Shown here one piece after another: positions 1,076-63,857 of a DNA stretch of 64,000 nt. The notes beneath the pieces are model-generated. The model was not told the DNA's origin. It did no database searches and saw only the letters and a list, made by a program, of their open reading frames with translations. The translations under genes and the position numbers were made by a program. Positions within the stretch are counted from its first letter, which is position 1, and the number at the start of each line of letters is the position of its first letter. The DNA comes from Anthracocystis setariae (lineage: Eukaryota > Basidiomycota > Ustilaginomycetes > Ustilaginales > Ustilaginaceae), in NCBI GenBank assembly GCA_928724745.1, contig CAKMXJ010000006.1:806001-870000 (forward strand). The letters are read 5' to 3'.

Positions 1076-3724
<2,649 letters not shown>

Positions 3725-47278: not shown

Positions 47279-48002
47279 TTATTGGAAGTCGACTGCGCCA
47301 AGGGGCGACCTTGATGGTAGGCAGCCAGGTACAATGAGTCTATCGTCTGCCAAAGATACTATAGCAAGTAGCTAAGTTGCTACAGACCTCACACTGGTGG
47401 ATGGGCGTATAGAGCTGGTTCTGTTGTTATGTCAGACCAGTTAGATCCATGACCAAGAGTGGGTGGTGACGTTAGGCAGCAGGCACAAAGGGAAGAGACC
47501 TATGTCAATACAACAGTGGCAACGTTGGTAAGGATCTGTAAGTAGCAAACGTTATGATACAGAGAAGTTGGTAATGAATCAATTAAGGGATCATCAACTG
47601 TGCGCTCGAAGTGCGCCCTATAAATACACCTTGGTCCCCTACACCGTTGTTGCCCGTAGCAGTGTAGGGAACTCTATAGCAACAACATTAGTGACAAAAC
47701 TCTACGCTAAGTGTAAACAACAGTTGATCATCAACATAAACAACAATGTTGACAATAACATGACCCAACAAGTAAACATCCCGGTCAGGAATGTGATGAG
47801 GCATGAAGCCCACATCACGTGGGAGTGCACAATGTCAACATTGGCATTGGCATGCGCATGGCTTCTGCGGCTGTGCGGCCGCGTCCTGAGGAATTGTGGC
47901 GTCGGCAACTATGTTGGAATATTACCGCACTAGTTATGGGCCTACCAACATCTGTAATGTCATGTCGATAGCTGACGCAGTAGGTGACCGTATATTTCAA
48001 CA
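47279..48002 (+). mobile_element. Copia-like LTR, copy 1 (decayed)
   Basis: This segment is shared, with many transitions, with 63142-63857; sequence to the left differs in the two places, so 47279 marks the element edge within a few bases. It ends TATATTTCAACA. A promoter-like TATAAATA lies at 47619-47626, as expected in U3. A shorter inverted pair (TGTTGGAATAT at 47911 and ATATTTCAACA at the end) leaves open that the true LTR is only about 92 bp and the upstream part is other element sequence. Homology continues past the LTR into a gag-like region. Confidence 0.65.
47619..47626 (+). promoter_or_regulatory. TATA box inside LTR copy 1
   Basis: TATAAATA is conserved in both copies of the LTR despite heavy divergence around it, consistent with the retroelement promoter. 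Confidence 0.5.
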
Positions 48003-48625
48003 GTCCCCTTCATCTGCTAAGTCATCAAAGCCGTCAACCATGGCATGAGACATATACAAACCTCACACACGTAGTGGTGCTTAAGTGACTGCACTTGAAT
48101 TGCTAGAGAGCAAAGCAATCAGGGAACTTGAAGGAAAACTATAGACACTAGCGCCAGCACTAAGTTACTACAGCAAATGGGAAGACCGGAACGAGACACC
48201 GAGAACTACCTGAATGAAGTTGAGACCTATTGCGCCAAAAAGAAAAGGGCCGTTAATAGAACGGCGATGACATGAAAGTCATCAGCGACAATGAGGAAAC
48301 AGCTACATACAAGAGAATCATTGGCCTAGCCCTAGGCCGTGGTGCGCTGGCTGCACGCGACGGTCAAATCCGTCGCCCATTTCCCTGCCAAATGGCGGGG
48401 CCCTCCATTTGTACGTCACCCCAATGGACAGCCAAATTTACACTGCTCCAGTGCAGCAACGTCAAACGCCAGATTTTAGCAGGAGCACCGGGCAACGGGC
48501 AACGGACGCGTCAAAATTGCCAGGAAATTGGCTGGGCAATGGTCAAAGTGGAGGACTGGTCCAGTGCCTGATGCACAGATCCAACTTTGACACTGGCGCC
48601 GTGCCCAAAGTACAGATCCAGTGAG
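48003..48625 (+). pseudogene. Copia-like gag remnant
   Basis: Directly downstream of the LTR. Three short stretches in different frames read like one Copia gag N-terminus: ELLESKAIRELEGKL, then MGRPERDTENYLNEVETYCAKKKRA, then MKVISDNEETATYKRIIGLALG. Stops and frame changes between them mark it as dead. No integrase or reverse transcriptase of this element follows, so it is truncated. Confidence 0.5.
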
Positions 48626-49228
48626 CATATCCGTGGGTGCATCAACTCCAGGTCAGCACCTTTTTCCCGTCTGTCAGACCGCCAGCATGTCAATTGACCA
48701 GCACATTCATTTTCTTTGACTGTCAGACCGCCATCAAGTCTATTGATCAAGTCTATTGATCAGTGCGTCAGCTTTCCAGCGCGTCAGCTTTTCAGCGGGT
48801 CAGTTAAGCTGTCCGGACTGGATCCCTTTGTTCACCACCACACAATGCCATTGCCAACACCATCTCCCTTTGTCCTTGTCCATGGCGTGACATGCCTATC
48901 CAACCTATCAGCATGCGTCCAGTCAAGGATCCCTTTTGTTCCCACGGTCAGCCATTGTTTGTGCTGGGGCAAGTACAGCCATTGTGTGCAAAAATTTACT
49001 TGCGCTTGCCTGGCAGACTGTCCTGCCATGTGCATGCTCTGTCCGTACTACATTGTCTGTGAGTCACGCACACTGAATGGTGTTGCTGAGCTGGCTGCTG
49101 GACGGGCCTCAGTGGTATATAGATGGGCGCCTGTGCTGCAGAGGACATCACATCCTCATCCTCTCTGTACCAATCTCACTCAAATCTCTACGCCCATCAT
49201 CAACGCAGACTGCTCAACGTCTCCAATC
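48626..49228. other. Upstream region of the recombinase-helicase gene
   Basis: Contains small direct repeats: two adjacent copies of AAGTCTATTGATC near 48736-48761, and two of GCGTCAGCTTT(T/C)CAGC near 48764-48798. A TATA box lies at 49116. The start of the mobile element carrying the next gene probably lies within this stretch. Confidence 0.45.
49116..49122 (+). promoter_or_regulatory. TATA box of the recombinase-helicase gene
   Basis: TATATAG about 110 bp upstream of the ATG at 49229. It supports that ATG, and hence the spliced gene model, as the real start. Confidence 0.5.
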
Positions 49229-52200
49229 ATGACTCCACAGTCACCGCCTCCTGCCAACAACAGCCAGGCTGATGGCAACATCATTGCAGCACTTGACAAC
49301 AAGTCAGTGGAAACTCCCTTGCTTGAAACGTAAGCTATTTGTGTCCTGTCCCCACGCATCACCAGCAATTAGCGTGTTTCTGATACATGTGTCTTTCTCC
49401 AACACAGTCCTGTCTTACCTGCTGCAAACCAGCTGGCCGCCAATGCTGCTGCTGTTCCTGACATTGCAGCTGCTGACAGCCGTGCAGCTGCTGCTGCCCA
49501 AGGCGCTGACTTTGGCCGCTTCTATCTCCGCTTGGTCAATCACCCGCAGTTGCTTGTCTGCACGCGCATTGGCTGTACTCTTGGAGTCCCGCTAACACCC
49601 TTGTTCAAAGATGTTACTGCTCACGTGCAGCGTTTCCATCACCAGCCTCTTGGTGACGCTTCACGCCGCGCTATCCAGGCCATGCTTGATCAGCTTGACC
49701 TGCCGCTTCCCAAGGATGTCACTGTGGACCAAGATCAGCTGCCTGTGCCCAAGATCAAGGAGCTGCCGGTGGTCACAGACGGTTACCAGTGCAACCACTG
49801 CTCCTACGCCATCTTTGCCAGGAATGCCATGTACGCTCACCTCAAGGACAAACACGCAGACCTGAAGGTCAAAGCCAAGTCTACGCACCCTGTCCTGCTG
49901 CAGGTCATCCAGGAACATGGCAAGAACAAGCGCTACATCTATGTGCAGGACAAGGAGCTGGACCCCACGCCTCCACAAGCCATCCTCAACCCCAACTTGG
50001 ATGCACGCCAGCTGGACAATGCCATCAAAGCCAAGGCTGCTGCATTCATCCAGCAGGATCAAGATGCTCTCCGTGATGCAGGTCTGCTCAACCCTGTTGT
50101 GGACACGTCCATGCGCACCGGCAACATTGGTCCCTGGGCCAAGCAGCTCAAGTGGCGCTCCTACTGGGCAGGAAAGCCGCTGACTGCCATTGGCGCCTTG
50201 GGCACAGACATGTCAAGCTGGCCCGGCGCTCACAGTGACTTTGTTCACTGGCTGGCTAGAATGACCAAAGCCTTTGCTCTGCATTGGATGCAGGCCTTTA
50301 TGGACTCTGGCCGCTACATGCAGCAGACATTCCGCGCCTACAGTGATGAGCCGTCCGAGCCCTACAACCTCCAGCCTCCCACCATCAAGAAGCGGGCTGA
50401 CATGTGGGGCAATGTCCTTGCTCTACTTGCACACCTTGCCTTGGATGGTGAGGCCCTCCACTATCACGGCAGCAGGACAGAGGAGCAGCATCTGGTGGTC
50501 ACAGAAGAGGCCACAGAGGCCATTCTACACCTGCGTGACTTGTCAACGCTCTTTGACAATGACAATGATGCCAGCGCCAACACCAGTGCACTTGCAGCTG
50601 CAGAGCACCAGCAACACATTCATGAGGTCACCCTTGCAGTGGAAGAAGCGCTGCTCAGCCTGTCCCACCAGCTCATCACGCAGCGGCCAGCAAAGCACGG
50701 TCAGACAGATGAGCTGATGCTGGTGCGTCTCTTCATGCACATGTGTGTGGACAGGGAAGGCATGCCCAAAGCCGTCAGCGCTGCCACCTCCATCATCGCC
50801 AGCCTGGAGTTCTGCATGCGTGCTGTGTTGCACCACTACCTCTTCAATGACACCAATGGTCAGCTCTTGAAGATGTCTCCATCTCAGACGGACAAGGCCA
50901 TGCGCAAGCACCTCAAGGAGAACGTCTACCACAACAGCAACTCTGCCAGCGCCCACCTCCAGTCTCTCCACCGCTACGGCAAGGTGCTTGCTCAGGATGA
51001 AGTCACGCCATTCATCTGTTCTTGGGCGCACGACCTCAGCCACATCAAGTACAGAACAGAGGAGATCCAGATCACACGCCTCCAAGCTCTGATGCAGGGT
51101 GCACAGGAACAGGCAGAGCGTCACCTGCGTCAGCTGTGTCTGCTCCCAGAGGACGCCACGCTGGCCATCAACCTCAAACACATCCAAGATGATCACCGCA
51201 ACACGCAACCAGGCTTCAACTTTGTCACCGCCTCCCCAGAGCTCAGCAACCTCAGCACTGTCCTCTGCCGTGCCGTTGCTGGCAATGCCCCACCAGCGCA
51301 ACCGCTGCTGGATGCCTACAGTGAAGAGCTGGAGTTTGATGCAGAAGCAGCACAGTCCTACTTCAGCACGCACAACAAGTTCATCAAGCTGCTTGCCGTT
51401 CTCATTGAACTGGGCAGCGGTCTGCCAGCAAGAGGCACAGAACTGATGCAGCTTCAGCACACCAACACGCTCATGGGTCCACGCAACATCTTTGTCCATG
51501 ATGGCAGCGTCTTCACAGCACTGCCCACCAACAAGGGCTCAGGGCGGCAAAGGATCATCCCACGCTTCCTGCCTCATGCAGTTGGCTGCATGGTGGTCTA
51601 CTACGTCTCTCAGGTGGCGCCCTTTGTCCATCTGCTTCACAATGCCATCATTAAGCCCCGCCCAGCCTGCCACATGCTTCTTTCTATGCACAGTGGGCAG
51701 CCGCTGGACACCAACACCGTCAGCAAGATGCTGCAGGCGCTCCATCAGCAGCACATCAGCTCTGTCTCCAGCGGCATGACCATGCGCATGTGGCGCCAGG
51801 TTGCGGTAGCCATTGACCGCAAGCTCATCCGTCCAGGCTCTGCAAGCATGTCCAGCAAGGAAACAGATCAAGACAATGAGCATGATCTCCAAGCAGGTCA
51901 CTTGACCAGCACTGCAGAGCAGCACTACGGCCTGGATGCAAGCATGCTCTACCAGCTCACGCAGGAAAGCATGGACCGCATGCTGGCGGTGTCAGAGCGC
52001 TGGCACACATTCTGGAGGATGCGCACGCGCTTTCAAGAGGACACACAGCCGTTCAACCAACTTGTTGAGCTTGGAAGCGGTGCTGACCACGCACAGGAGC
52101 TCAGAGGCATCAAGCGCAAGTTGGAGCTGGTAGAAGAGAGCGTGCTCACCATCAGATGCAAGCTGGAACACCACACTCCACCATCAGCGCACAGCACTGG

Positions 52201-54232
52201 CGGCAGCCTGCAGCTCAGCGGTGCTTCACGCTCTGCTGTGCTCCCACCAGCAGTCAGCAGGGCCCTCTTCCAGATTACCGGCAGCCACCGCACCAAGACA
52301 CTGGAGCAGGCCTATGCACTCAATGCCATTCACGCCAAGGAGTCTCCACTGATCATCATCATGGCCACTGGATCCGGCAAGTCTGCACTCTTCATGGCTC
52401 CACTGCACTGGCTGCCAGAGCGGTCTGTCATCATTGTGGTGGTGCCCTTCATTGCACTGACAGATGACCTCCTGCAAGACTGTCGCCGTGTTGGTGTCAC
52501 TGCCAAGCAGTGGGCCAGCCACCAACCGTCAAGAACAGTAGCAGGTGTGGGAGCCCAGCTGGTCTTTGTTGCGGTGGAGAACTGCCACAGTGTGGAGTTT
52601 GCTAATTGGGCACGCGTCTTGCAAGAAGAAAAGCAGCTGGCGGCCATCTTCTTTGATGAGTGTCACGTCTGCCTCACTCAGAGCAACTTCCGACCAGCCA
52701 TGGACAAGATCAAGGCGTTGCTGTCTTCTGTGCATGTGCAGCAGTACTTCCTCACTGCCACGCTACCACCTGCGCTGGTGTCCACCCTCAAGACAGCGCT
52801 CCAGCTCCCGCATGACGGCACAGGCATGATACGTGCCAGCACCAACCGCAAGAACATCTCCTATGCGGTGCAACGGCTGAAGTCAGAGGACAGCATGTTG
52901 CTCTGCTTGGAAGAGCTCCTTGCAGCGCATCCAACAGGAGCAGTGATGGTCTTTTGCATCTCCAAGTCGGCCACAGCATTCACCGCAACAGCGCTTGGCT
53001 GCCCCTTCATCACATCAGACATGGATGAGGCATACAAGCAGACCACCATCTCAGCCTGGTTGCGGTGCTCCACCACAGAGACGGACAACAGCAAGCGCAT
53101 CCTGGCAGGCACCACCGCCATTGGAACCGGCATCAACCCGCAGCACGTCAAGCTGGTAGTGCACTGCAGCAACACGTTTGACATGATCAGCTATGTCCAA
53201 GAGTCTGGCCATGCAGGCCGCAGCGGAGCACCAGCAACAGCAGTGCTGCTTGCAGTGAACAACACATTGGTCCAGCAGTACGTGGAGGAGCAGACATGCC
53301 GGCGCTTGATCATCTCCACCTACATTGATGGCATGCCGGTCACCTGCCTCAGCCAGCCAGACTTTGCGCTCTGTGACCTTTGCCATCAAGCAGTTGGGGA
53401 AGAACCTGGCACGCCACCCAGAACAACCATTGCAGTGGAGTCTCCTCCTGTCCACCAGCCCCGTCATGCCAGCAGCAGCTCACGTCAGACACTGCAGCGC
53501 ACACCCACCACCCCACAGCATCACAACGCAAGCGCTAGCAGCAGCAGGCTGCAGCAGATTACCAGCACCAGCGCCTTGCGCTCACCAGCAGCACCGTACA
53601 CGCCCACTCCACGCACGCTACACAGGGTCAATCAGCAGCCCAGTCCATCGGCCATGTTCTCTCACCGCTTGATGCCAGCACCACCTGACTTTGGCTCACC
53701 AGTGCGCGCAGCTGATCCCAATGTCTCCCACATACGCTCATTGCTGGAGCCGCTGGTGGACCGCTGCTCCCTCTGCTATCTCTTCAGCCGCAGTCACACA
53801 TGCAGTGGAGAGCATGGTCTCAGCCACCGCTTCAAAGACTGTGCATGCTGGAACCAGATAGAGGCGCTGCTGCCGGAGACAGAGGATCCAGAACGCATCA
53901 ATGGCACGCACATTGGCAAGATCAAGAACTGCATGCGGAAGGACAAGGGAAGTACGTGCTGGACATGCCTGGTGCCAACAAAGGTGTGCTTGACCAGCAA
54001 CGTCTCGGTGGCCACACCTTGCTCAAGGCGGTATGCAGATATAGTGTTGCCAGTGGTAGCTGCCATGCTCAGAGATGAGCCGTCTTGTATTGATGTGTTT
54101 CAGCAGCTTGGCCGTCCCTTTGTGGACTTGGAGATGGTGGAGGCAGAGCTAGGAACCACAGTGCTGTATCATGGTGAGCGTGTCTTCCTAGCGTTTGCCA
54201 TCTTTGCCACCGCTGTTCAGCTGGCAGGTTAG
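49229..54232 (+). CDS. OrsD-type zinc finger / tyrosine recombinase / RecQ helicase fusion
   Basis: 1641 residues from two exons (49229-49329, 49408-54232) across a 78-bp intron (GTAAGC…CACAG). The N-terminus is Ala-rich. Residues ~80-185 have the paired C2H2-like layout of the fungal OrsD/DUF3505 region (CTRIGC…H, then CNHC…H…H at 162-183). The middle carries tyrosine-recombinase features: GLPARGTEL (R709), NKGSGRQRIIP (K743), TMRMWRQ (R830), AGHLTSTAEQHYGL (H865, Y874). H-to-Y spacing of nine matches XerD-type enzymes; the usual box-II His three residues before R830 is Arg. From ~1010 a RecQ-type helicase follows: ATGSGKS (1020-1026), FFDECH, FLTATLP, GTTAIGTGI and QESGHAGRSG. A Cys/His cluster (CSLCYLFSRSHTCSGEHGLSHRFKDC) lies near the end. 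It is open throughout and probably nuclear. By inference it is the transposition protein of a mobile element. Confidence 0.85.
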
Positions 54233-54465
54233 TTGTCGACAGCAGCTCAGCAATGTGATGTGAGGAATACAGGTTTGCATAGCAGAGATTGGAACAGCAT
54301 GATCAGCAAGTGAAAGTGCTGCTTGCAAAGCATGACTGTCAGCGTACATGCAATGGTTGATATACGCCGTGAATGGTAATCTACGTCAAGGCTGCCCTAT
54401 ACAGAAGACAATGGGGCATCACATGTGTTATTGGGGAAAACACCTCAGGAACGTAACAAGTACAC

Positions 54466-54575
54466 TTAGCCTAGGTGATTGATGTCTGCATTTTATGTGG
54501 ATTATTGAGAACCCGCAAGGGAAAAGGGGCCTTTCAGGAATCGAAGGGGCGTGGGTTCAATCCACGTTGTCGCAC
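54466..54575 (+). other. tRNA-like remnant (A/B-box sequences)
   Basis: An A-box-like TTAGCCTAGGTG near 54466 is followed about 85 bp later by a B-box-like GGGTTCAATCC and GTTGTCGCA, which resembles a tRNA-Ser/Leu 3' end. The T stem is out of register by one base and no matching 5' acceptor strand is present, so this is not a functional tRNA. It may be a SINE-like or pseudo-tRNA fragment. Confidence 0.3.
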
Positions 54576-54594
54576 TGTTACCGTGTTAATCCTC

Positions 54595-54667
54595 CGTCAC
54601 AAGCGCTAGAAGTCTACGGTCAAATCTGTTTTCTATGGATAGCCGTGAACTGACAGCGCTTGTGACG
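54595..54667. repeat. 13-bp perfect inverted repeat
   Basis: CGTCACAAGCGCT at 54595-54607 and its exact reverse complement at 54655-54667, separated by 47 bases. It could form a hairpin or mark an element end. Confidence 0.75.
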
Positions 54668-54821
54668 TGACTTTGTTTTTTGCTGTTGTACTGACATTGT
54701 TCTGTGTCTAGCAGACGGGAAAGCATGGGAACCACAGGACAAGTACAAAGCAGTCTGTGTTGAAGATGGAGAGTCAAATCACGGAGAGCCTTCTTTCCTT
54801 TGCGGTAATTGAATTTTCCAA

Positions 54822-55220
54822 GGCAGCACAGCACAGAGGGGGACGTGTCTCTGAGAATCAGATTTTTGCTCGGAGAGGAAAGTCCCCCTTTGCCAGAAGT
54901 TCGAAGGCAAATTACTTGGATTTTTCAAGGCAGCCCAGCACAGTGGGGGGACGTGTCTCTGAGAATCAGATTTTTGCTTGGAGAGACAAGTCCCCCTTTG
55001 CCAGAAGTTCGAAGCCAAATTGCTTGAAATTATTTTTCAGGCAGCACAGCACAGTAGGGGGACGTGTCTCTGAGATTCAGATTTTTGCTCAGAGAGACAA
55101 GTCCCCCTTTCCTAGAAGTTCGAAGCCAAATTGCTTGGAAATATTTTTCAGGCAGCACAGCACAGTGGGGGACTTGTCTCTTCGATCTACTTTTTGAATC
55201 TGAGAGACAAGTCCCCCTCC
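54822..55220 (+). repeat. Tandem array of ~110-bp hairpin units (x4)
   Basis: Four units begin with GGCAGCACAGCACAG at about 54822, 54929, 55040 and 55151. Each contains an inverted repeat of the form GGGGGAC(T/G)TGTCTCT … AGAGACAAGTCCCCC with a loop of about 20 bases (AATCAGATTTTTGC in units A-C, different in D). The hairpin arms are kept better than chance in the last unit even though its loop has changed. The array ends about 50 bp before the start codon of the dioxygenase gene. Confidence 0.9.
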
Positions 55221-55268
55221 TTCTCGATGCTGAACTGTTGCAATCACCCCAGACCTCTTAATACATCC

Positions 55269-56291
55269 ATGCCAGCCAAGTCTCAAGCAGCTTTGGATCG
55301 AAAGAAGGAGGCCACAGCAGTCAGGGATGCAGAGAGAAGGAGAAGCTATCGAGACTTACAAAAGGAGACCTACAAGATCCATCTTTCTCGAAGGCATCAT
55401 ATCAACAAGGCCTCAGCCCTATCCAGCTTCGATGATCTTGAGCTCAAACCACTTGGAGAGGTCAATGACAAGTATCCAACTCGAAGAAACCTCACTCTAG
55501 TGGACAGACAGAGCAAACAGATCGTGCTTCAGAGGATTTCACCTACCAGTTACACCAAAATGCTCGAAGCTAGAGCATCCTCCATCAAAGGTCGAGACTA
55601 CCTGAATGCATACCTATCCAAGAAGGCCTCAGCATGGCATATCAAGAGGTCAGACATCGAGTCTAGCAAGCAGCAGCTCAAGTTCAAGCTCACAAGAAGG
55701 AAAGTTGTCGAACATCATCTTGGCATCTGGCATTCTCGAGGCAAAACCAGCCTAGACTTCACCAAAGAGACCTCCAATCATCGATACAAGGATCAAGCAC
55801 TCGATCTTCTCCTCTGGGCAAAGCAGCACATGGCCAGCACAATGCAATCTTCGAAGAAATTGATTGATTCCAGCTTCAGACACAACCTCAAGACTCGAAG
55901 CAAAAGTACCAAGTGGCTAGCCTCAATCTTTGAACCATCCAATGTCGACCTTCTCCACCCCTACTGGACCACTATAGCCTTCTTCTCCAACTTTGCAGGG
56001 GGTCTACATCGAGATGAGCAGGATTGTATCCCTTCTTTCCTATTCAACTTCGAAGAAGCTGCTTGGCTGGAGCTGCCAGAGTTCTCGGTCAAGATCCTTA
56101 TCAATCCTCTCGACATGGTCATACTCAACTCTCACACCTACTGGCATCGAACCAAACCTGTGGATTCTGAGTCTACAGCTGGAAAGAGATGGGCATTCAG
56201 TGGTTTCTATCGAGAGTCCATCTACAATCAAGAACCTATCACTAGCATTGCACATAAGAGACTCGAGGCTATCAATGAAAAGCACAAGTAA
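55269..56291 (+). CDS. Putative 2OG-Fe(II) dioxygenase, TET/JBP-like
   Basis: 340 residues from the ATG at 55269; the frame is open to 55131 but that part reads through the repeat array. The N-terminal ~60 residues are highly charged (DRKKEATAVRDAERRRSYRD). The C-terminal half has the dioxygenase signature: LHRDEQD (HxD at H247 and D249), then LELPEF and the strand ILINPLDMVILNSHTYWHRT with a distal His at H293 (H289 is an alternative), then GKRWAFSGFYRESIY with the 2OG-binding Arg at R307. The HxD…L-x-L-P-E…H…R-W-x-F layout fits the TET/JBP nucleic-acid-modifying group known to expand alongside transposons in basidiomycetes. By inference it would oxidise a modified base. AlkB-like or other dioxygenases remain possible. 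Intact, inside a repeat-rich island, with no transposase beside it. Confidence 0.65.
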   Translation: MPAKSQAALDRKKEATAVRDAERRRSYRDLQKETYKIHLSRRHHINKASALSSFDDLELKPLGEVNDKYPTRRNLTLVDRQSKQIVLQRISPTSYTKMLEARASSIKGRDYLNAYLSKKASAWHIKRSDIESSKQQLKFKLTRRKVVEHHLGIWHSRGKTSLDFTKETSNHRYKDQALDLLLWAKQHMASTMQSSKKLIDSSFRHNLKTRSKSTKWLASIFEPSNVDLLHPYWTTIAFFSNFAGGLHRDEQDCIPSFLFNFEEAAWLELPEFSVKILINPLDMVILNSHTYWHRTKPVDSESTAGKRWAFSGFYRESIYNQEPITSIAHKRLEAINEKHK

Positions 56292-56479
56292 TTCCATTCC
56301 AGACTCGAAGAGAAAAAGGGGGGATTCTGAATGACCAGCTCCAAAAAGGCTCGAGACCCCCAAAATCTGACCTGGCTGAAAATTTTTGCCGAGTTTCCCC
56401 TATTTTGATCCTGCCACCCAAGTCTGATTTCCGAGTTCCATAATTTCCCTGACGTGTTTTTTTGCATTCTGAGTGTTAG

Positions 56480-57480
56480 TTCATACCGAGTGTTGGTCCA
56501 ATTGATGATTTTGGTCAGGTATTCCTCATTGGCACGTGTTCTTGACCTTCTGCGTGGTCTGGTATATACCCTTGCTGATACAGAGCCTCAACAAGAACAT
56601 GGTTCACTGGATCTCTGCCATATGTAGGAAGTAACACCAGTCCAAGACGTACACAGTGCACAAAAAGACAGGTCAAAAAGCTTGCGTTTTCAGGTACTTA
56701 CCTTTGACATGCCTTTATCTGTCCAAAATCAGCCAATAAAGGCATGTCAAAGTGAAGTCACACATAGGTGAAGCTATCAAGGTGTGACTTTGTGTTCCAT
56801 ACTCAGGATGAGCCTGCGCAATGTCCTATGGGGTAGAGAAGTCAATATATGAGCCTTTGTGTTGATGCGTGTTTCCTTGTGGGCCAGTAGCAGCACCCAG
56901 TTTCCGCATGGATAGCCAGAACACCTCTGAGAGACAAATGGCTGTCATAGGCAGCTGCAGCAGGTTGAGAGGAGTCCAGAACACTATTTTGCGTGGAAGA
57001 TTTCTTGCATTTTCAGGTACTTACCTTTGACATGCCTTTATCCGTCCAAAATCAGCCAATAAAGGCATGTCAAGGTAAAGTCCCCGGTCTTGGGTCCATT
57101 TTGGATCTGCCTTTTGTGTACACACTCAGAAGAGGTTGCTCCAGTGTCCTATAGGCTAGAAAGTGGGACAGCTACACTTTAGCTTTCACGCTGTTGCCTA
57201 CCCCAGCACCTCCTCCAGCAGTGAATTATGCAAAGTGCTCAGGGAGCAAATCCTATGCTGTAAGACACTGCATGATGCTGAAGGGACCTCAGAACACTCA
57301 TTTGCATGGAGAATATCTTGCGATTTATTGTACCTGCCTTTGACATGCCTTTAATCATCTGAAATCAGCAACTAAAGGCATGTCAAGGTAAGATTGGTGG
57401 GAACAAGTCCACTTTGAGTCTGTCTTTTGTGGACAAGCTCAGAAGAGGCTGGTACAGTGATCTATAGTATAGGAAAATTG
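56480..57480. repeat. Three diverged ~320-bp tandem units, each with a hairpin
   Basis: Each unit contains the arms CTTTGACATGCCTTTA and TAAAGGCATGTCAA(A/G)G. Unit 1 arms are at 56702-56718 and 56736-56752 (17 bp, perfect); unit 2 at 57025-57041 and 57059-57075; unit 3 at 57338-57353 and 57373-57388. Spacings are 323 and 313 bp. Outside the hairpin the units share weaker blocks (GTGT/CCTAT…TAGA; CTCAGAAGAGG). The hairpin is the best-conserved part. No coding sequence is evident. Outer limits are approximate. Confidence 0.85.
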
Positions 57481-57699
57481 ATATCTAGGCCCCTAACCCC
57501 CGCCGCATCTCCAAGTCATTGCCCAATTCAGTTGAGTGTCACATAGTCAAGTTGTGTCAAAGTAAGGTGAGCAGCTACCTTGCATTAAAGCCTTCTTCAA
57601 GCCAGCCAACTCTAGCCCAACCATGATCATGTGCTAGGTCAGCAAGCTGTGCGTGTCAACACAAAAACAGTGGTTGTACGTGTGACACCAAAAACACGC
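57481..57699. other. Spacer before the gypsy LTR
   Basis: About 220 bp with no recognised feature. The five bases before the LTR (CACGC, 57695-57699) would be one copy of the target-site duplication. Confidence 0.4.
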
Positions 57700-58454
57700 T
57701 GTTACAGGCAGCGAAGCCGAGGCGGCGGAAAACTGGTTTCACGGCCGCCTTCGGCCCCAGCGCGGTTAAGAGGGCTACGGTCGACCGCCCTCACATTCGG
57801 GTGAGGGGAGGTACGTGACCCGCAGTGCGCCGAATTTAGCAGTGGCGTTACTCACGGGGGGTAAAGTTGGAGCGGTGGAAAATACGCTTTTCGGCCGCCG
57901 TCGAAGTGAGTGCGGCTCAAAGAGTCTCTTTCAGCCGATTTTGCCCATAGCGATCGGATGGCGGCCGTTCGACAGCGCAGAGACGCCGGATCGCGACAAA
58001 CGCCATCTCGAGGAGATCAGCAGGTGAGGGACACCATCTCAGATGCTCTCAGAGGCTTGGAGGTGATCAGCTGCTTGTGCCGCGGTCAGTACATGCGCAC
58101 ACGCAGGCCGTGCAGCTAGACAATAGGCCAGCGCCGGATCGACCTTGCCATAGGGGCTTGGAGCGGACATACTTAATGTCTCCTCACCTGGCTCGTAGTG
58201 GATGAGCTCCTCATCCACTCTACTTCTTACAACACCAGTCTTTAGCTCAGTATAGCTCCTTAACGTCGTCGTCACGATCATTCAGTATCTAGTAAAGTAA
58301 GTTGCAATTACAGTAGCATTGCAGCTTCCTTGCGTGCCTCCGTTCAAGTCGGAGAACAGCTAGACGTCGTCAGTACCTGTGACGACACTACAACACATAA
58401 CCGCTGCCTACAAGCTAATACCTAGACGTCAGACTCTTGGACGTCGCCGTAACA
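57700..58454 (+). mobile_element. 5' LTR of the Ty3/Gypsy element
   Basis: Boundaries were inferred from the terminal inverted repeat TGTTAC (57700-57705) … GTAACA (58449-58454), giving a 755-bp LTR ending about 400 bp before gag. The primer-binding site would start directly at 58455 (GCTTAGTGATCACG), but the priming tRNA was not identified. The 3' LTR is outside the window, so the LTR cannot be confirmed by comparison. It is CpG-rich and shows no sign of decay. Confidence 0.55.
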
Positions 58455-58850
58455 GCTTAGTGATCACGTCTAGTGTTCACCTAACCATCTCCTAAGCCTT
58501 CTGTCTTGTCAAGAGCGCTCGCGGGACACCAGGCTATCACGCTGTAATACCGAGTACGCCGTGCTGCCGCTGAACGGAGCGCCAACAGCGTCAGTCGGTA
58601 ATAGGTCGAATGCGGTCGAGAAGCCCACTCTCCACCGCCGCCGAGTCGAGTGCGGCCCAGTCGCTCTCATCGGACCGCCGACGTATCTGCGCAACCCACC
58701 TCGTACTTCCTAGTTGCACAGGCGCGTATCCCAAACTCGGCGGCCCAGCCCAACAGGACCGCACCGCGCTCGAACCGAGATCGGCCTATTCACCAGGCGC
58801 CCGACCGCTGACATTAGAGTGGATCGTTCAAGCAGCGCCCCGTACTCGAC

Positions 58851-60524
58851 ATGACCGACGCAGCCGCGCCGCGAGGCAGTACACCTCGCAGTCGGACGTC
58901 GTCGCCTCCTGCAGCGAACCCAGAACCATTGCTGCAAGGCCTAATCGAGGACATACGACTTCAGATGAAGGAGGTCCATAACCAACGCATGGCTTACGAA
59001 ACTAGTCGTCAGGAGGCCATGCTGAAAGAGAGCCAAGACCGACTCCGCTTTCAGGAGAAGCTCTACTTACTCATGGACCAGGCGACCGGCTCCAAGCTGT
59101 CGCCCACGCCGTCGACAGCTATCCCAGCGTCGTCGCGACCTCTAACGGCGCAGCAGGAGGAGATCCTCGCGCTCAAGGCCGAGATCGCAGACCTCAGGGA
59201 GCTGATCAAGCCAGCTCTACGCCGAGGGGGTGAGCCAGAGGTCGCCGCCGTCGCCCCTGGACACGAAGCGCACGAGGAGAGGTCGTACAGCATGCATGAT
59301 GACCCTCGGCGCTCTGCTCCGTTGGGTAGCTCTACCCCTGCCCGTCGACCAGTGGCGTCAGCCCTACGCTGGAACGAAGAGTACAGTCAGGAGGACTTGT
59401 ATTCGACCTCCACCGGCCGACGCCCCGCCTGGGACCATCCCACCATGACGGCACGGGAAGCAACCTTCGAGCGCAATACTGCCAAGAGCGACCCGAAGCT
59501 TGACTTCCCCGACTGGCAAGAGAATGACTTGGAGATGTCGCTCATCCAGGTCGAGGCCTGGTTCCGGTATCAGGAGATGTCCGACGGCCGCAAGAGGATC
59601 CAATTCCTGGGACCGCATCTCAAGGGTCGGGCTCTCACTTGGTACCGGTCCAAACTACGTGCCGATCCATCCCAGTCGGGCGCATTGTTCGGTGACTGGA
59701 CCCTTTTCGTCAACCGGCTCAAGCAGCTCTACGGCGTTCACGACGAGAAGCTGGATGCCTTCAATAAGCTCTACGCCCTGCGCCTCGCCACCGACAAGCC
59801 AGGCGCTGCAAGCGAGTACGTCGAAGCGTTCAGGACCCTTGAGGAGCGAGCTGGTATGAGTGACGAGCACCTCAAACTCCACCTTTTCCGGCGGGGCTTG
59901 ACTCCAGTTCTCCAGCGTCAATTCGAGCGTACGTCGCCGAAGACGTTGTGGGAGTTCTACCGCGAGGTGGAGGATTTGGATCGCAACCGGGTCTTAGCGC
60001 AACAGACGTACCAAGGCGGTGCAGCGACCCTCGCTCAGCCGATCTCAAACTCATTGCGGTACGATTTCCCCTCGGCGGCTGGAAGAACTCACGCCCCGAC
60101 CGCCGACGGTGCAAAAGCGGCCGGGCGGGTATTGGCACCGTCCGCCGTGGAGGCACGGCCGGCTGCAGCCACGCCCTCCCCAGCGCGCCCTCGGCCGTTA
60201 CCGCCCCATCTGGCCCAACGCCTGCCCGTCGTCTACGATCGTTCGCCGACGACTTTCGGCTCCACCACGTGCAAGCGATGCGGTAAGGAGGGTCATTGGG
60301 TGCGTGACTGCCCTCAGCCGGCCCGGGAGACGGCCACCGGAGCGCCACGACGACCTGGACCTCGAGCCTACGTGGCGCAAGAGGATGCCGTAGCACAAGA
60401 GGACGTCGAAGACCAAGATGAGGAGGAGGCACTTGGTTATGAAGATCTCCCACCCCTCGCTGACGACGACGGGGTCGATGATGATCACGACGTTGAGGGA
60501 AACGGGTGTGGGACAACCGAATGA
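58851..60524 (+). CDS. Ty3/Gypsy Gag (capsid and CCHC nucleocapsid)
   Basis: 557 residues, intact. The N-terminus is disordered with a coiled coil (about 30-125). The capsid-type retrotransposon gag domain follows (WQENDLEMSLIQVEAWFRYQ…LKGRALTWYRSKL…FVNRLKQLYG…LRLATDKPGAASEYVEAFRTLEERAGMSDEHLKLHLFRRGL). The zinc knuckle is CKRCGKEGHWVRDC (CX2CX4HX4C). The end is acidic. The stop codon overlaps the first ATG of pol (ATGA at 60521-60524). Confidence 0.93.
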   Translation: MTDAAAPRGSTPRSRTSSPPAANPEPLLQGLIEDIRLQMKEVHNQRMAYETSRQEAMLKESQDRLRFQEKLYLLMDQATGSKLSPTPSTAIPASSRPLTAQQEEILALKAEIADLRELIKPALRRGGEPEVAAVAPGHEAHEERSYSMHDDPRRSAPLGSSTPARRPVASALRWNEEYSQEDLYSTSTGRRPAWDHPTMTAREATFERNTAKSDPKLDFPDWQENDLEMSLIQVEAWFRYQEMSDGRKRIQFLGPHLKGRALTWYRSKLRADPSQSGALFGDWTLFVNRLKQLYGVHDEKLDAFNKLYALRLATDKPGAASEYVEAFRTLEERAGMSDEHLKLHLFRRGLTPVLQRQFERTSPKTLWEFYREVEDLDRNRVLAQQTYQGGAATLAQPISNSLRYDFPSAAGRTHAPTADGAKAAGRVLAPSAVEARPAAATPSPARPRPLPPHLAQRLPVVYDRSPTTFGSTTCKRCGKEGHWVRDCPQPARETATGAPRRPGPRAYVAQEDAVAQEDVEDQDEEEALGYEDLPPLADDDGVDDDHDVEGNGCGTTE

Positions 60525-63144
60525 TGGCTTGTCTTGCCCTGCAACCGCCCTCGCCATCACCCTGTATATATCGGAACTGTTCATTGTGTTTCTCGGCCAA
60601 CTCCAATACATCGGTCCTCGAAGTTACCGGCACCATCAACGGGTGCCCGGCTCGCATCCTGGCCGACACCGGAGCTTCACTGTCTCTTCTCTCAAGCGCT
60701 TACGCCCGCACATATTGTATTAACATCAAGACCACTCCCCAGCCCACTGCAGTCCACGGCGTCAGCGGCCATCGTCTAGCCATCACTCACGATGCGACGC
60801 TGACGGTCAACATCGGCGAGCAAACTTTACCGCCGCTGCAGGCCTATGTCGCGGACATCAGCGATTTCGATCTCATTATCGGCTACCAGGAACTTCGCAC
60901 ACTTCAGCCGAGGATCGACTGGACTTTGGGCCGAATTAAATTCACCGCGGCGCAGCGGGATCCACTAGGCCGCGTTAAACACGACCTCGGTCCGTCACTT
61001 AGTGTCATCAGCCGCGCCTTACCCTCTAACGAGCCGGGTATCACGGTCCACGGAAACGAGTTCGTCTCATTCCAACAGCTCGTCCAAGCGTCCTATCAGG
61101 ACGGACCGATTGGCATTATGCTGATCGATGCTCCACCCTCCTCGCTGCCAAGCTTCGGCTTCGTCCCTACCGGCGAAGACAAGGGCATCGAGATTGAGGT
61201 GGAGCCTGAACCACCGACTCCAGTGTCGATCCCAGAGCAATACCGGGATCTCGAGGCGGTCTTCAGTGAAGTCGAGGCCGACAAGCTGCCTCCTCGCACC
61301 AGCACGGACTTGCCCATCGAGCTCGTGCCGGGAGCCAAACCTCCGCAGGGCCCACTCTATCTCAAGGGGCCTAAGGAAATGGAGGAACTACGCAAGTACC
61401 TCGACGAGAATCTTGCGAAGGGATTCATTCGACCGTCAAAGAGCCCAGCTCGCTCGCCAGTGCTGTTCGTGCCGAAGAAGGACGGCGGCCTCCGCCTCTG
61501 TGTCGACTACCGAGGGCTCAATGAGGTCACTGTCAAGAATCGAGCGCCGTTGCCGCTCATCGAGGAGCAGCTGTTCCTCCTAAGGAATGCTAAGGTGTTC
61601 AGTAAGCTCGATCTCAAGGCGGCATACAACTTGGTACGAATAGCCGACGGTGATGAATGGAAGACGGCGTTCGGCACCCAACTCGGCCTGTATGAGTACC
61701 TTGTCATGCCTTTCGGGCTGGCCAATGCGCCTTCACATTTCCAGTCGCTCGTCAACAGCATCTTTCGCGACATCATCGGAGTCTACGTGGTAGTGTACCT
61801 TGACGACTTCCTCATCTTCAGCAACAAGGAGGACGAGCATGTTGATCACGTCCGCGAGGTACTGCGGCGTCTACAAGCGAACCGACTCTTCGCCAAACTG
61901 TCAAAGTGCATTTTCCACACCGACACCGTCGAGTTCCTCGGCTACGTCATCACGCCAGGAGGCATCGAAATGGATCAAGAGAAGGTACGAATCATCAAAG
62001 AGTGGCCGTTACCTCAGACGATTCACGATATCCAGCGCTTCCTGGGGTTTGCGAACTTCTACCGCCGGTTTATCTCACATTTCGCTCGGATATCAAAGCC
62101 CCTCACAACGCTCATCAAGCCTACGGAGCGGTTCAAGAAGTTCCAACTGTCGGAGGAGGCGGTAGAGGCTTTCCACAAGCTCATCGAGGCTTTCACGACA
62201 GCGGGAGTACTGCGACATTTCGATTACCACAAGCCAACCCGCCTCGAGACTGACGCCAGCGACTTCGCCATCGCCGGCGTTCTCAAACAGGAGACGGAGA
62301 ACAGATGGCATCCCGTGGCTTTCTACTCGCGCAAGATGACGTCAGCTGAGAAAAACTACGAGATCCATGACAAAGAGCTCCTCGCCATCGTTGCCTGCCT
62401 CCATCAGTGGCGACATATGCTGGCTGGCCTCCCGTCTCAGTTTGCTGTTCTCTCAGATCACGAGGCGCTCAAGTACTTCACCGTACAACGTCGAATTAGC
62501 GGCCGACAGGCTCGTTGGGCTGTGTTACTGGCCGACTTCGACTTTGTTGTTCAGTACCGACCGGGAGACAAGGCTGGCGAGCCCGACTCTTTGACACGAC
62601 GCAGTGACATGGAGCCGTCGGCTGAAGAGCGCGAGCATAACGTACGGCAGCTCCTCCACCCCCGCATTTTTGAAATTGGATTACCGGAAAATCAGTCACC
62701 GGGCCGAAATGAATCCGACGGCGGCTTGACGGGGGTCATTCAGCCGCAGTCGTCGATGGCGGCAATAGTAAGGGGCGGCCTGCCGGAGTTAGTTCGCGTT
62801 TTCCAACCGCTCGACACCGAGCTCCAAGCGCTCCACAAGCACACGCCTTTCGAAGTCAAAGACGGTCTTTGGTATCGCGAAGGCCGACTTGTCATTCCCA
62901 AGGTCACGCTGGCCGGAAAGCAGGGTCGCAGCGACACACGCTCGGCCAAGATTGCCAGCGAACAGTCGCTCTCGGTAGAGCACCTGCGCTTCATGGTGAT
63001 GACACAGTGCCACGACGGCATCACCGCCGGACACCCGGGTCGTGACACAACGCTAGCCCTCACCCAGCGTCATTACTGGTGGCCGGGAATGCGTGCTTGG
63101 ATCGCCGACTATGTAGCGAGCTGTCCGGTCTGCGCCCGTTATTA
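60521..63144 (+). pseudogene. Ty3/Gypsy Pol, truncated in the integrase
   Basis: It lies in the -1 frame relative to gag. The first ATG overlaps the gag stop, so either -1 frameshifting or reinitiation could express it; the open frame itself starts at 60506. Order: retropepsin (ARILADTGASLSLLSS), reverse transcriptase (CVDYRGLNEVTVKNRAPLP, FSKLDLKAAYN, MPFGLANAPSHFQ, catalytic YLDDFLIF), RNase H (LETDASDFAIAGVL, EKNYEIHDKELLAIV, SDHEALKYF), then the integrase HHCC finger (HDGITAGHPGRDTT…RHYWWPGM…SCPVCAR). Protease, RT and RNase H look intact. Homology stops right after CPVCAR, where the Copia-like LTR begins; the integrase core and any chromodomain are missing from this window. The insertion makes the element non-autonomous. 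Confidence 0.92.
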
Positions 63145-63857
63145 TTGGAAGTCGACTGCGTCAAGGGGCGACCTTGACGGTAGGCAGCCAGGTACGATGA
63201 GTCTATCGTCTGCCAAAGGTACTATAACAAGTAGCTAAGTCGCTATAGACCTCACACTGGTGGATGGGCGTATAGAGCTGGCTCTGTTGTTATGTCAGGC
63301 CAGTTAGATCCGTAACCAAGAGTGGGCGGTGACGTTAGGCAGCAGGCACGAAGGGGAGAGACCTATGTCGATACAACAGTAGCGACGTCGGTAAGGATCT
63401 GTAAGTAGCAGGCGTTATGATACGGAGAAGTTGGTAATGAATCGATTGAGGGGTCATCAACTGTGCGCTCGAAGTACGCCCTATAAATACACTTAGTCCC
63501 CTACATCGTCATTGCCAGTAGCGGTGTAGGGAACCCTATAGCGACGACGTTAATGACAAGACTCTTCGCTAAGTGTAAACAACAGTTGACCATCAACATA
63601 AACAAAGATGTTGACAATAACATGACCCGACGAGTAACATCCCGGTCAGGAATGTGATGAGGCACCATGTCAACATCACGTGGGGACGTACAGTGCCGGC
63701 ATTGGCTTTGGCACGCGCATAGTTTCCCCGCTGCCGAGTCCCGAGGAATTGTATTGTCGGCAACTATGCCGGAATATCACCGCACTAGTTATGGACATAC
63801 CGACGTCTGTAGTGTCACGTCGATGGCTGACGCAGTAGGTGACCGTATATTTCAACA
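63142..63857 (+). mobile_element. Copia-like LTR, copy 2, inserted in gypsy pol
   Basis: It starts with TTATTGGAAGTCGACTGCG, shared with copy 1 at 47279, and ends TATATTTCAACA. It carries the TATAAATA box near 63483. It breaks the gypsy integrase after CPVCAR. It is richer in CpG than copy 1 at aligned positions. Confidence 0.7.

Follow-up and report, generated by a model that had tools for sequence, protein, structure and literature searches.

A 64,000-nucleotide stretch of the genome of the smut Anthracocystis setariae (GenBank assembly GCA_928724745.1, contig CAKMXJ010000006.1; hereafter the window) carries one copy of a multicopy element whose gene encodes a single protein with an OrsD zinc-finger region, a predicted tyrosine recombinase (YR) domain, and a RecQ-type helicase core. 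The genome comprises 21.5 Mb in 36 contigs, labeled C1 onward, and the window is C6:806001-870000; features given below by window coordinates all lie on the + strand. The element is mobile: an exact left terminus recurs in 40 copies belonging to two families. We think it probable that the left end of this YR-helicase element is recombined with CCT in subtelomeric DNA and that the chromosome end is replaced in the process.

The preliminary description of the window had reported one intact 1641-residue frame at 49229-54232. The coordinates and the length were accurate; the frame is not uninterrupted, because the spliced translation joins exon 1 (49229-49329) to exon 2 (49408-54232) across a 78-bp GT..AG intron (49330-49407), the whole spliced protein having 1641 amino acids. 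The start and the splice sites recur in copies L002, L003, and L006; in L004 and L005 they were not found by the pattern used. Both the OrsD-type region (49547-49855; PF12013, E 5.9e-8) and the RecQ-type helicase that had been proposed were recovered. The helicase core (52304-53254) was delimited by Pfam, PDB, and NCBIfam searches (Pfam DEAD, E 3e-14, and Helicase_C, E 1.2e-9) and is RecQ-like according to TIGR00614 (E 3.8e-30), with which the PDB search agrees; the TIGR00614 score of 105.1 bits lies far under the curated cut-off of 219.8 bits. Neither an RQC nor an HRDC domain appeared in the Pfam results at E up to 1. Canonical RecQ helicases (BLM, WRN, RecQ) have RQC/HRDC domains and score at the curated level, whereas the helicase of the element does neither. 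Pfam detected no reverse-transcriptase domain in the gene of the element.

Structure prediction and alignments place the YR catalytic domain at residues 672-905 (51320-52021). R709, K743, R830, H865, and Y874 were located exactly where they had been described (first bases of the codons: 51431, 51533, 51794, 51899, and 51926), which confirms the earlier observation of the gene and of its catalytic residues. The reported replacement of the box-II His by Arg was also correct: R827 of the spliced protein, three residues ahead of R830, occupies the usual box-II His position. The R-K-R-H-Y order is typical of Xer/Cre recombinases. The box-II His is, to our knowledge, also absent in TopoIB and so is not universal across the YR/TopoIB superfamily. 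The predicted structure has a YR fold, resembling the XerA/XerH and Cre recombinases, with which the element's domain has both fold and residue order in common; the best Xer match stood at 12.3 and the best Cre match at 10.7, other Cre rows ranging down to 8.0. It differs from these enzymes in its low identity to them in structural alignments (∼10%-15%), in the replaced box-II His, and in the large domains added at its N and C termini.

The catalytic residues are strongly conserved. In an alignment of 138 rows (the query and homologues P0001-P0137, counted where a row has a letter at the column), R709 was present in 133/134 rows, K743 in 134/135, R830 in 127/131, and H865 and Y874 each in 135/135; the box-II position, among 131 rows, was Ser in 99, Arg in 14, and His in 5. 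A 57-row alignment, 45 of whose 56 other rows are only 18%-23% identical to the window fragment, retained eight invariant query columns, R709, K743, H865, and Y874 among them, with R830 at 90% or more. All five residues were among the 11 invariant columns of a 15-row fragment alignment (22%-73% identity). Since alignment rows are redundant and were picked by similarity to this region, such counts indicate constraint and not independent events. Sequence-only detection failed: neither the protein nor its YR segment matched a YR family in Pfam, NCBIfam, or PHROGs, so that the profile search suggested earlier returned no such family around residues 650-905; none of 15 homologous members matched one in Pfam, and a PDB profile search did not detect the domain either. 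Pfam gave no match to a DUF3435-type captain, and detects no YR family at all in the YR domain. A YR fold with its catalytic set is, as computed, present in the protein, and strand cleavage and joining would be the activity expected of it.

All five gene parts tested proved to be under purifying selection by computation, with pN/pS of 0.12-0.21 among six full-length copies (15 pairs, which share branches and are not independent); the value was 0.18 for the YR region (residues 561-905) and 0.12 for the helicase part. Such low values suggest that both enzymes are kept while copies spread.

The six full-length gene copies, the window's included, lack inner stops and are 98%-100% identical; truncated copies also occur, as do diverged gene copies at C18, C16, C23, and C36, whose pieces are 43%-54% identical. 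When copies were aligned, a sharp left boundary was seen at window position 48325. It coincides with the left terminus CCTAGCCCTAGGC (48325-48337), which contains a CCTAG-CC-CTAGG inverted repeat and whose first three bases, CCT, are common to terminus and target. This 13-bp sequence has 40 exact copies in the genome, compared with 2 for a reversed-pattern control; 30 are followed by family-A and 10 by family-B sequence, the proteins of the two families being about half identical. DNA to the left of the terminus is mostly unrelated between copies. Some left flanks do share repeats, and clustering reduced 36 flanks to 33 clusters. Family B begins at the same nucleotide as family A although upstream DNA otherwise aligns poorly. 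The 5' non-coding part (48338-49228) holds sub-terminal blocks common to both families, such as GCGTCAAAATTG and TTACACTGCTC, and the distance from the left end to the ATG is 904 bp in the window copy and 886-911 bp across four copies. Hence the 13 bp and sub-terminal blocks like GCGTCAAAATTG look functional. As single-stranded DNA, the left-end hairpin was unremarkable (z -1.89). What speaks against plain segmental duplication of subtelomeres, a reading considered and rejected, is that the left flanks are for the most part unrelated and begin at a single nucleotide.

Empty sites were available in the fetched loci for 16 of the 33 flank clusters; the other 17 had no usable one. Matches were left out of the count if they covered fewer than 35 bp, had less than 80% identity, stopped over 3 bp away from the junction, lay too close to a locus end, or were filled sites themselves. 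The site taken for each of the 16 clusters is the match with the highest score, which is not in every case the orthologous locus. CCT stood at the junction in 13 of these 16 (10/12 for family A, 3/4 for family B), whereas at other offsets these sequences showed it 13 times in 912. At the window site, the target is an interrupted repeat, LTR-like (long terminal repeat) by its repeat pattern (47279-48324); the empty relative reads ATTGG/CCTGAGGCCC (uninterrupted, ATTGG/CCTGAGG) and the filled site ATTGG/CCTAGCCC, the slash marking the junction. In 24 of 33 clusters a C precedes the junction (background 23%), as AC in 12 and TC in 7, giving a target context of mostly ACCCT or TCCCT, near the telomeric CCCTAA strand. 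With CCT and the preceding C, target and terminus thus both resemble that strand. Two of the dropped matches also favor CCT, namely L053 (78%) and L034 (79.9%; the L034 match that was counted reads CTT).

Other observations depart from CCT or qualify the counts. The three remaining empty sites read CTT, CCC, and CTT, and the dropped matches of L037 (21 bp) and L060 (31 bp) read TGC. In the case of L059, two relatives reading CTT outscore one that reads CCT, and CCT is missing from some relatives with lower scores, whether in tandem repeats or elsewhere. Among the sites counted, the empty site of L006 rests on 39 bp, and those of L045 and L049 lie 6 bp apart within one repeat. Taken together, the computations show a CCT target.

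The computed orientation of the copies is end-facing. Of the 40 termini, 38 are directed towards the contig end closest to them, as are all 30 on contigs longer than 200 kb; 39/40 lie within 50 kb of a contig end. These counts include duplicates: three copies in C5 have a single flank in common, and flanks are nearly identical between C28 and C30, C33 and C34, C16 and C36, and C31 and C32. Two termini are exceptions: C26:17374 belongs to a head-to-head pair, and C30:24388 lies on a contig of 28 kb, with a flank that repeats the C28 flank. C6 carries the telomere repeat at its right end and C10 at its left; the right contig end of C7 and the left contig end of C15 do not.

Local rearrangements and telomere-like sequence were seen near some left ends. 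Four left ends lie within 6.3 kb at the end of a contig (C5:911577-917871); three of them have a left flank in common, a case of tandem duplication. The two head-to-head copies at C26:17374-32294, on a 92-kb contig, represent either an end fusion or an assembly artefact. Interstitial TTAGGG arrays with TTACAAGG/TTACACTG-type sequence behind them (L012:6473-6645, L015:9963-9980) lie, in some copies, ∼15-20 bp before a left end of the element (C7:787160, C8:912329, C8:919346, and C9:61694), and are perhaps another telomere-linked element.

The comparison of empty with filled sites, proposed earlier as a route to the ends of the element, thus succeeded on the left. On the right, we compared 601-802 bases around six empty target loci, comprising nine junctions, with the genome, and scored the best 40 of 46, 85, 48, and 61 candidates in four queries and all 23 and 18 in the other two. 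Among the matches listed, none began at any junction, as a right half-site or reciprocal product would. Left half-sites, that is, matches ending at the junction, were listed for seven of the nine junctions, L041 and L008 being those without; the matches listed for one of the six target queries are filled by LTR copies. The right half of the LTR that is missing in C6 has a single distal match there, inside a second LTR with its own left part. A candidate right terminus, ..GTGATTAGGTT behind the gene in four copies (two in C10, one each in C15 and C26), was rejected: GTGATTAGGTT is not the end of the element, because similarity between the C15 and C26 copies continues 3.5 kb beyond it, and the inner C10 copy still shows it over at least 1.3 kb. 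A simple two-ended insertion is not what the data show; they show a left end with a CCT target, and no right-hand junction among the matches listed.

Site-specific joining with end replacement would most simply account for four features: the exactness of the end, the identity at CCT, the orientation towards contig ends, and the lost distal part of the target. The YR domain would recognize the left terminus CCTAGCCCTAGGC, cleaving or covalently binding CCTAGCCCTAGG DNA, and would recombine the leading CCT with a subtelomeric CCT, usually one preceded by C. Only the left end would take part. The arm proximal to the target would become joined to the element, and all DNA distal to the target would be replaced by the element together with whatever lies out to the telomere of the donor. 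Were an element joined the other way round, a dicentric or acentric chromosome would result; surviving copies should accordingly point to the telomere. The helicase probably acts alongside the cutting and joining recombinase, unwinding the DNA for strand transfer and/or powering the copying of the donor end; such copying, resembling break-induced replication, would also multiply the copies. The absence of a reciprocal product among the matches listed mildly favors copying over exchange. The earlier interpretation of a recombinase-helicase mobile element is supported: of the two findings named in advance as able to overturn it, neither was made, since the predicted structure has the YR fold and R709, R830, and Y874 are conserved.

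The main rival to end replacement is an ordinary two-ended YR transposon, Crypton- or Starship-like, that moves via a circle, leaves a CCT direct repeat, and has since lost its right ends through chromosome-end erosion and recombination. The YR gene is indeed the first inside the left end, as in Starships (PMC12153272), an identity of a few bp between target and terminus is known from both Starships (PMC12153272) and Cryptons (PMC3212892), and the subtelomeres of this genome are clearly mosaic. Such a transposon should nevertheless occur in both orientations, and the 30/30 on large contigs facing the end speak against it, as do the six target queries without a listed right half-site and the single distal match of the window LTR remainder, inside a second LTR that has a left part of its own. 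We consider this rival unlikely.

Two further accounts would leave strand transfer by the domain out of the spread of the element. Host repair, by microhomology-mediated break-induced replication or telomere capture, might copy subtelomeres while the YR-like domain is a relic or a DNA binder. Host repair is known to exchange subtelomeres, the junction identity is only ∼3 bp, and the box-II His is replaced; an identical start nucleotide in 40 copies of two diverged families would then be unexpected, as would near-invariant R, K, R, H, and Y and the low pN/pS of the YR region, and we regard this account as very improbable. Least probable of all is that the domain is a type IB topoisomerase forming a swivel-helicase for chromosome ends, like RecQ-Top3 or reverse gyrase, with the element spreading by other means: the best Xer and Cre matches (12.3 and 10.7) are higher, though other Cre rows reach down to 8.0, and a terminus and a target that are both precise at CCT suggest strand transfer of a site-specific kind.

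Two protein searches yielded 137 homologues. With the window protein as query there were 18, mostly from smuts (Ustilago, Sporisorium; Kalmanozyma brasiliensis at 93%); with a distant relative as query there were 121 matches, 120 of them listed, many from ascomycetes, including Fusarium, Colletotrichum, Botrytis, Stachybotrys, Trichoderma, and Pseudogymnoascus. Their source annotations include RecQ family helicase, Bloom syndrome protein-like, and hus2/rqh1. The suggestion that helicases annotated as RecQ in smuts hide a recombinase was borne out by this survey; its restriction to smuts was too narrow, since RecQ-annotated ascomycete proteins also carry the fusion. One metagenomic protein, P0136 (1970 aa), is a very distant YR-RecQ homologue that looks unlike the fungal ones, and the fusion may therefore reach beyond fungi. 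A scan of viral contigs revealed no relative.

With its RecQ-like core, OrsD region, and multiple copies near chromosome ends, the element has the features of TLH/UTASa genes. TLH genes (UTASa/UTASb of Ustilago maydis and those of Fusarium and other fungi) likewise combine a RecQ-like helicase with OrsD/DUF3505 and have many subtelomeric copies (PMC10532341, PMC7593156). Subtelomeric RecQ/TLH genes have been described in U. maydis, Fusarium, Colletotrichum, and Agaricus (PMC10532341, PMC7593156, PMC12857005, PMC5576322, PMC7473861) and also in Zymoseptoria (PMC4522978); those of Colletotrichum share one orientation relative to the telomere (PMC5576322), and in Fusarium many copies are truncated, as here (PMC12857005). 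The available portions of the TLH papers report no YR domain (PMC10532341, PMC7593156, PMC5576322, PMC12857005), in contrast to the one predicted here, and among the open-licence PMC papers listed, no title or abstract opening was seen to report a YR-RecQ fusion.

Cryptons also have a tyrosine recombinase and a short identity between terminus and target. Their proteins are YR-only or YR with GCR1_C, in contrast to OrsD, YR, and a fused RecQ helicase in the element, and no GCR1_C match was found in its protein. A Crypton is flanked on either side by a direct repeat of 4 or 6 bp, and movement as a circle has been proposed (PMC3212892), whereas the element has 3 bp at the one end seen; the word "helicase" does not occur in that paper. 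Starships, similarly, have a YR gene just inside the 5' end with variable cargo behind it and 2- to 12-bp direct repeats (PMC12153272). They have two ends, usually with terminal inverted repeats, whereas here the YR is fused to RecQ and copies face contig ends. 

Other elements offer partial parallels. Helitrons, with their Rep-helicase, and AcademH and KolobokH elements unite a transposition enzyme and a helicase in one element, as here; they differ in using HUH or DDE chemistry, other helicase families, and other termini. HeT-A/TART and MoTeR colonize chromosome ends and have many truncated copies, and they use reverse transcription. The presence of helicases in AcademH, KolobokH, and Helitron elements is documented (PMC10799480), and FoTeR also colonizes chromosome ends with many truncated copies (PMC12857005), likewise by reverse transcription.

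A role of subtelomeric RecQ genes in telomere maintenance has been suggested, with no mechanism given in the available portions of the reports (PMC7593156, PMC7473861, PMC12857005). Several TLH genes are up-regulated in telomerase-negative U. maydis (PMC10532341), which makes the rebuilding of ends by a recombinase a direct question. We put forward tentatively, as a serious possibility short of an expectation, that fungal TLHs are DNA mobile elements of a new class, "YR-RecQ end-capping elements," that swap or copy whole chromosome ends site-specifically at CCT, an old, telomerase-independent and non-retro way of rebuilding ends that is common to Basidiomycota and Ascomycota and perhaps serves the host as a telomere backup. 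If true, the spread of TLHs, their uniform orientation, and the rapid turnover of chromosome ends would acquire a testable enzymatic cause, a recombinase-helicase fusion would be added to the eukaryotic mobile elements, and annotations such as RecQ family, Bloom syndrome protein-like, and hus2/rqh1 would need correcting.

Behind the gene, the window copy has a downstream part (54233-57583) in common with the C7 and right-hand C10 copies, extending to ∼57.55-57.58 kb; other copies have different downstream sequence from ∼54250-54325. The part shared by C6, C7, and the right C10 copy includes 111-bp tandem repeats (54813-55218, 3.7 copies) and the region of a 386-aa open reading frame (ORF; 55131-56291, open from 55131). 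Downstream of the C15 and C26 copies there is another 3.5 kb in common, of which the inner C10 copy has at least 1.3 kb, and the left C10 copy differs again. The 386-aa ORF had no Pfam match, weak PDB matches to a Tet-like dioxygenase (E 0.66-0.95), and a match to phrog_24024 (3e-5); judged from sequence, it is perhaps a TET/JBP-like dioxygenase cargo gene. Beside the left-hand copy in C10, on its left, lies what by eye is a gene related to this ORF.

Further along the window, a Ty3/gypsy-like retroelement seems to start at 57699 (57699-63238 and beyond), as indicated by its repeat pattern and by an RNase H-like VVQYRPGDKAGE recognized by eye. The right-hand C10 copy of the element sits inside a relative of this retroelement, at a site matching window position 62583. 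Near the ends of C7 and C10 (L012, L015, L013) there is a tandem satellite with a unit of ∼1156 bp, which in the right C10 runs into TTAGGG. At the other side of the window, an 882-aa ORF (1076-3724) overlaps Gly/Ser- and Asn-rich tandem repeats with units of 6 to 234 bp and possibly encodes a repetitive secreted or surface protein.

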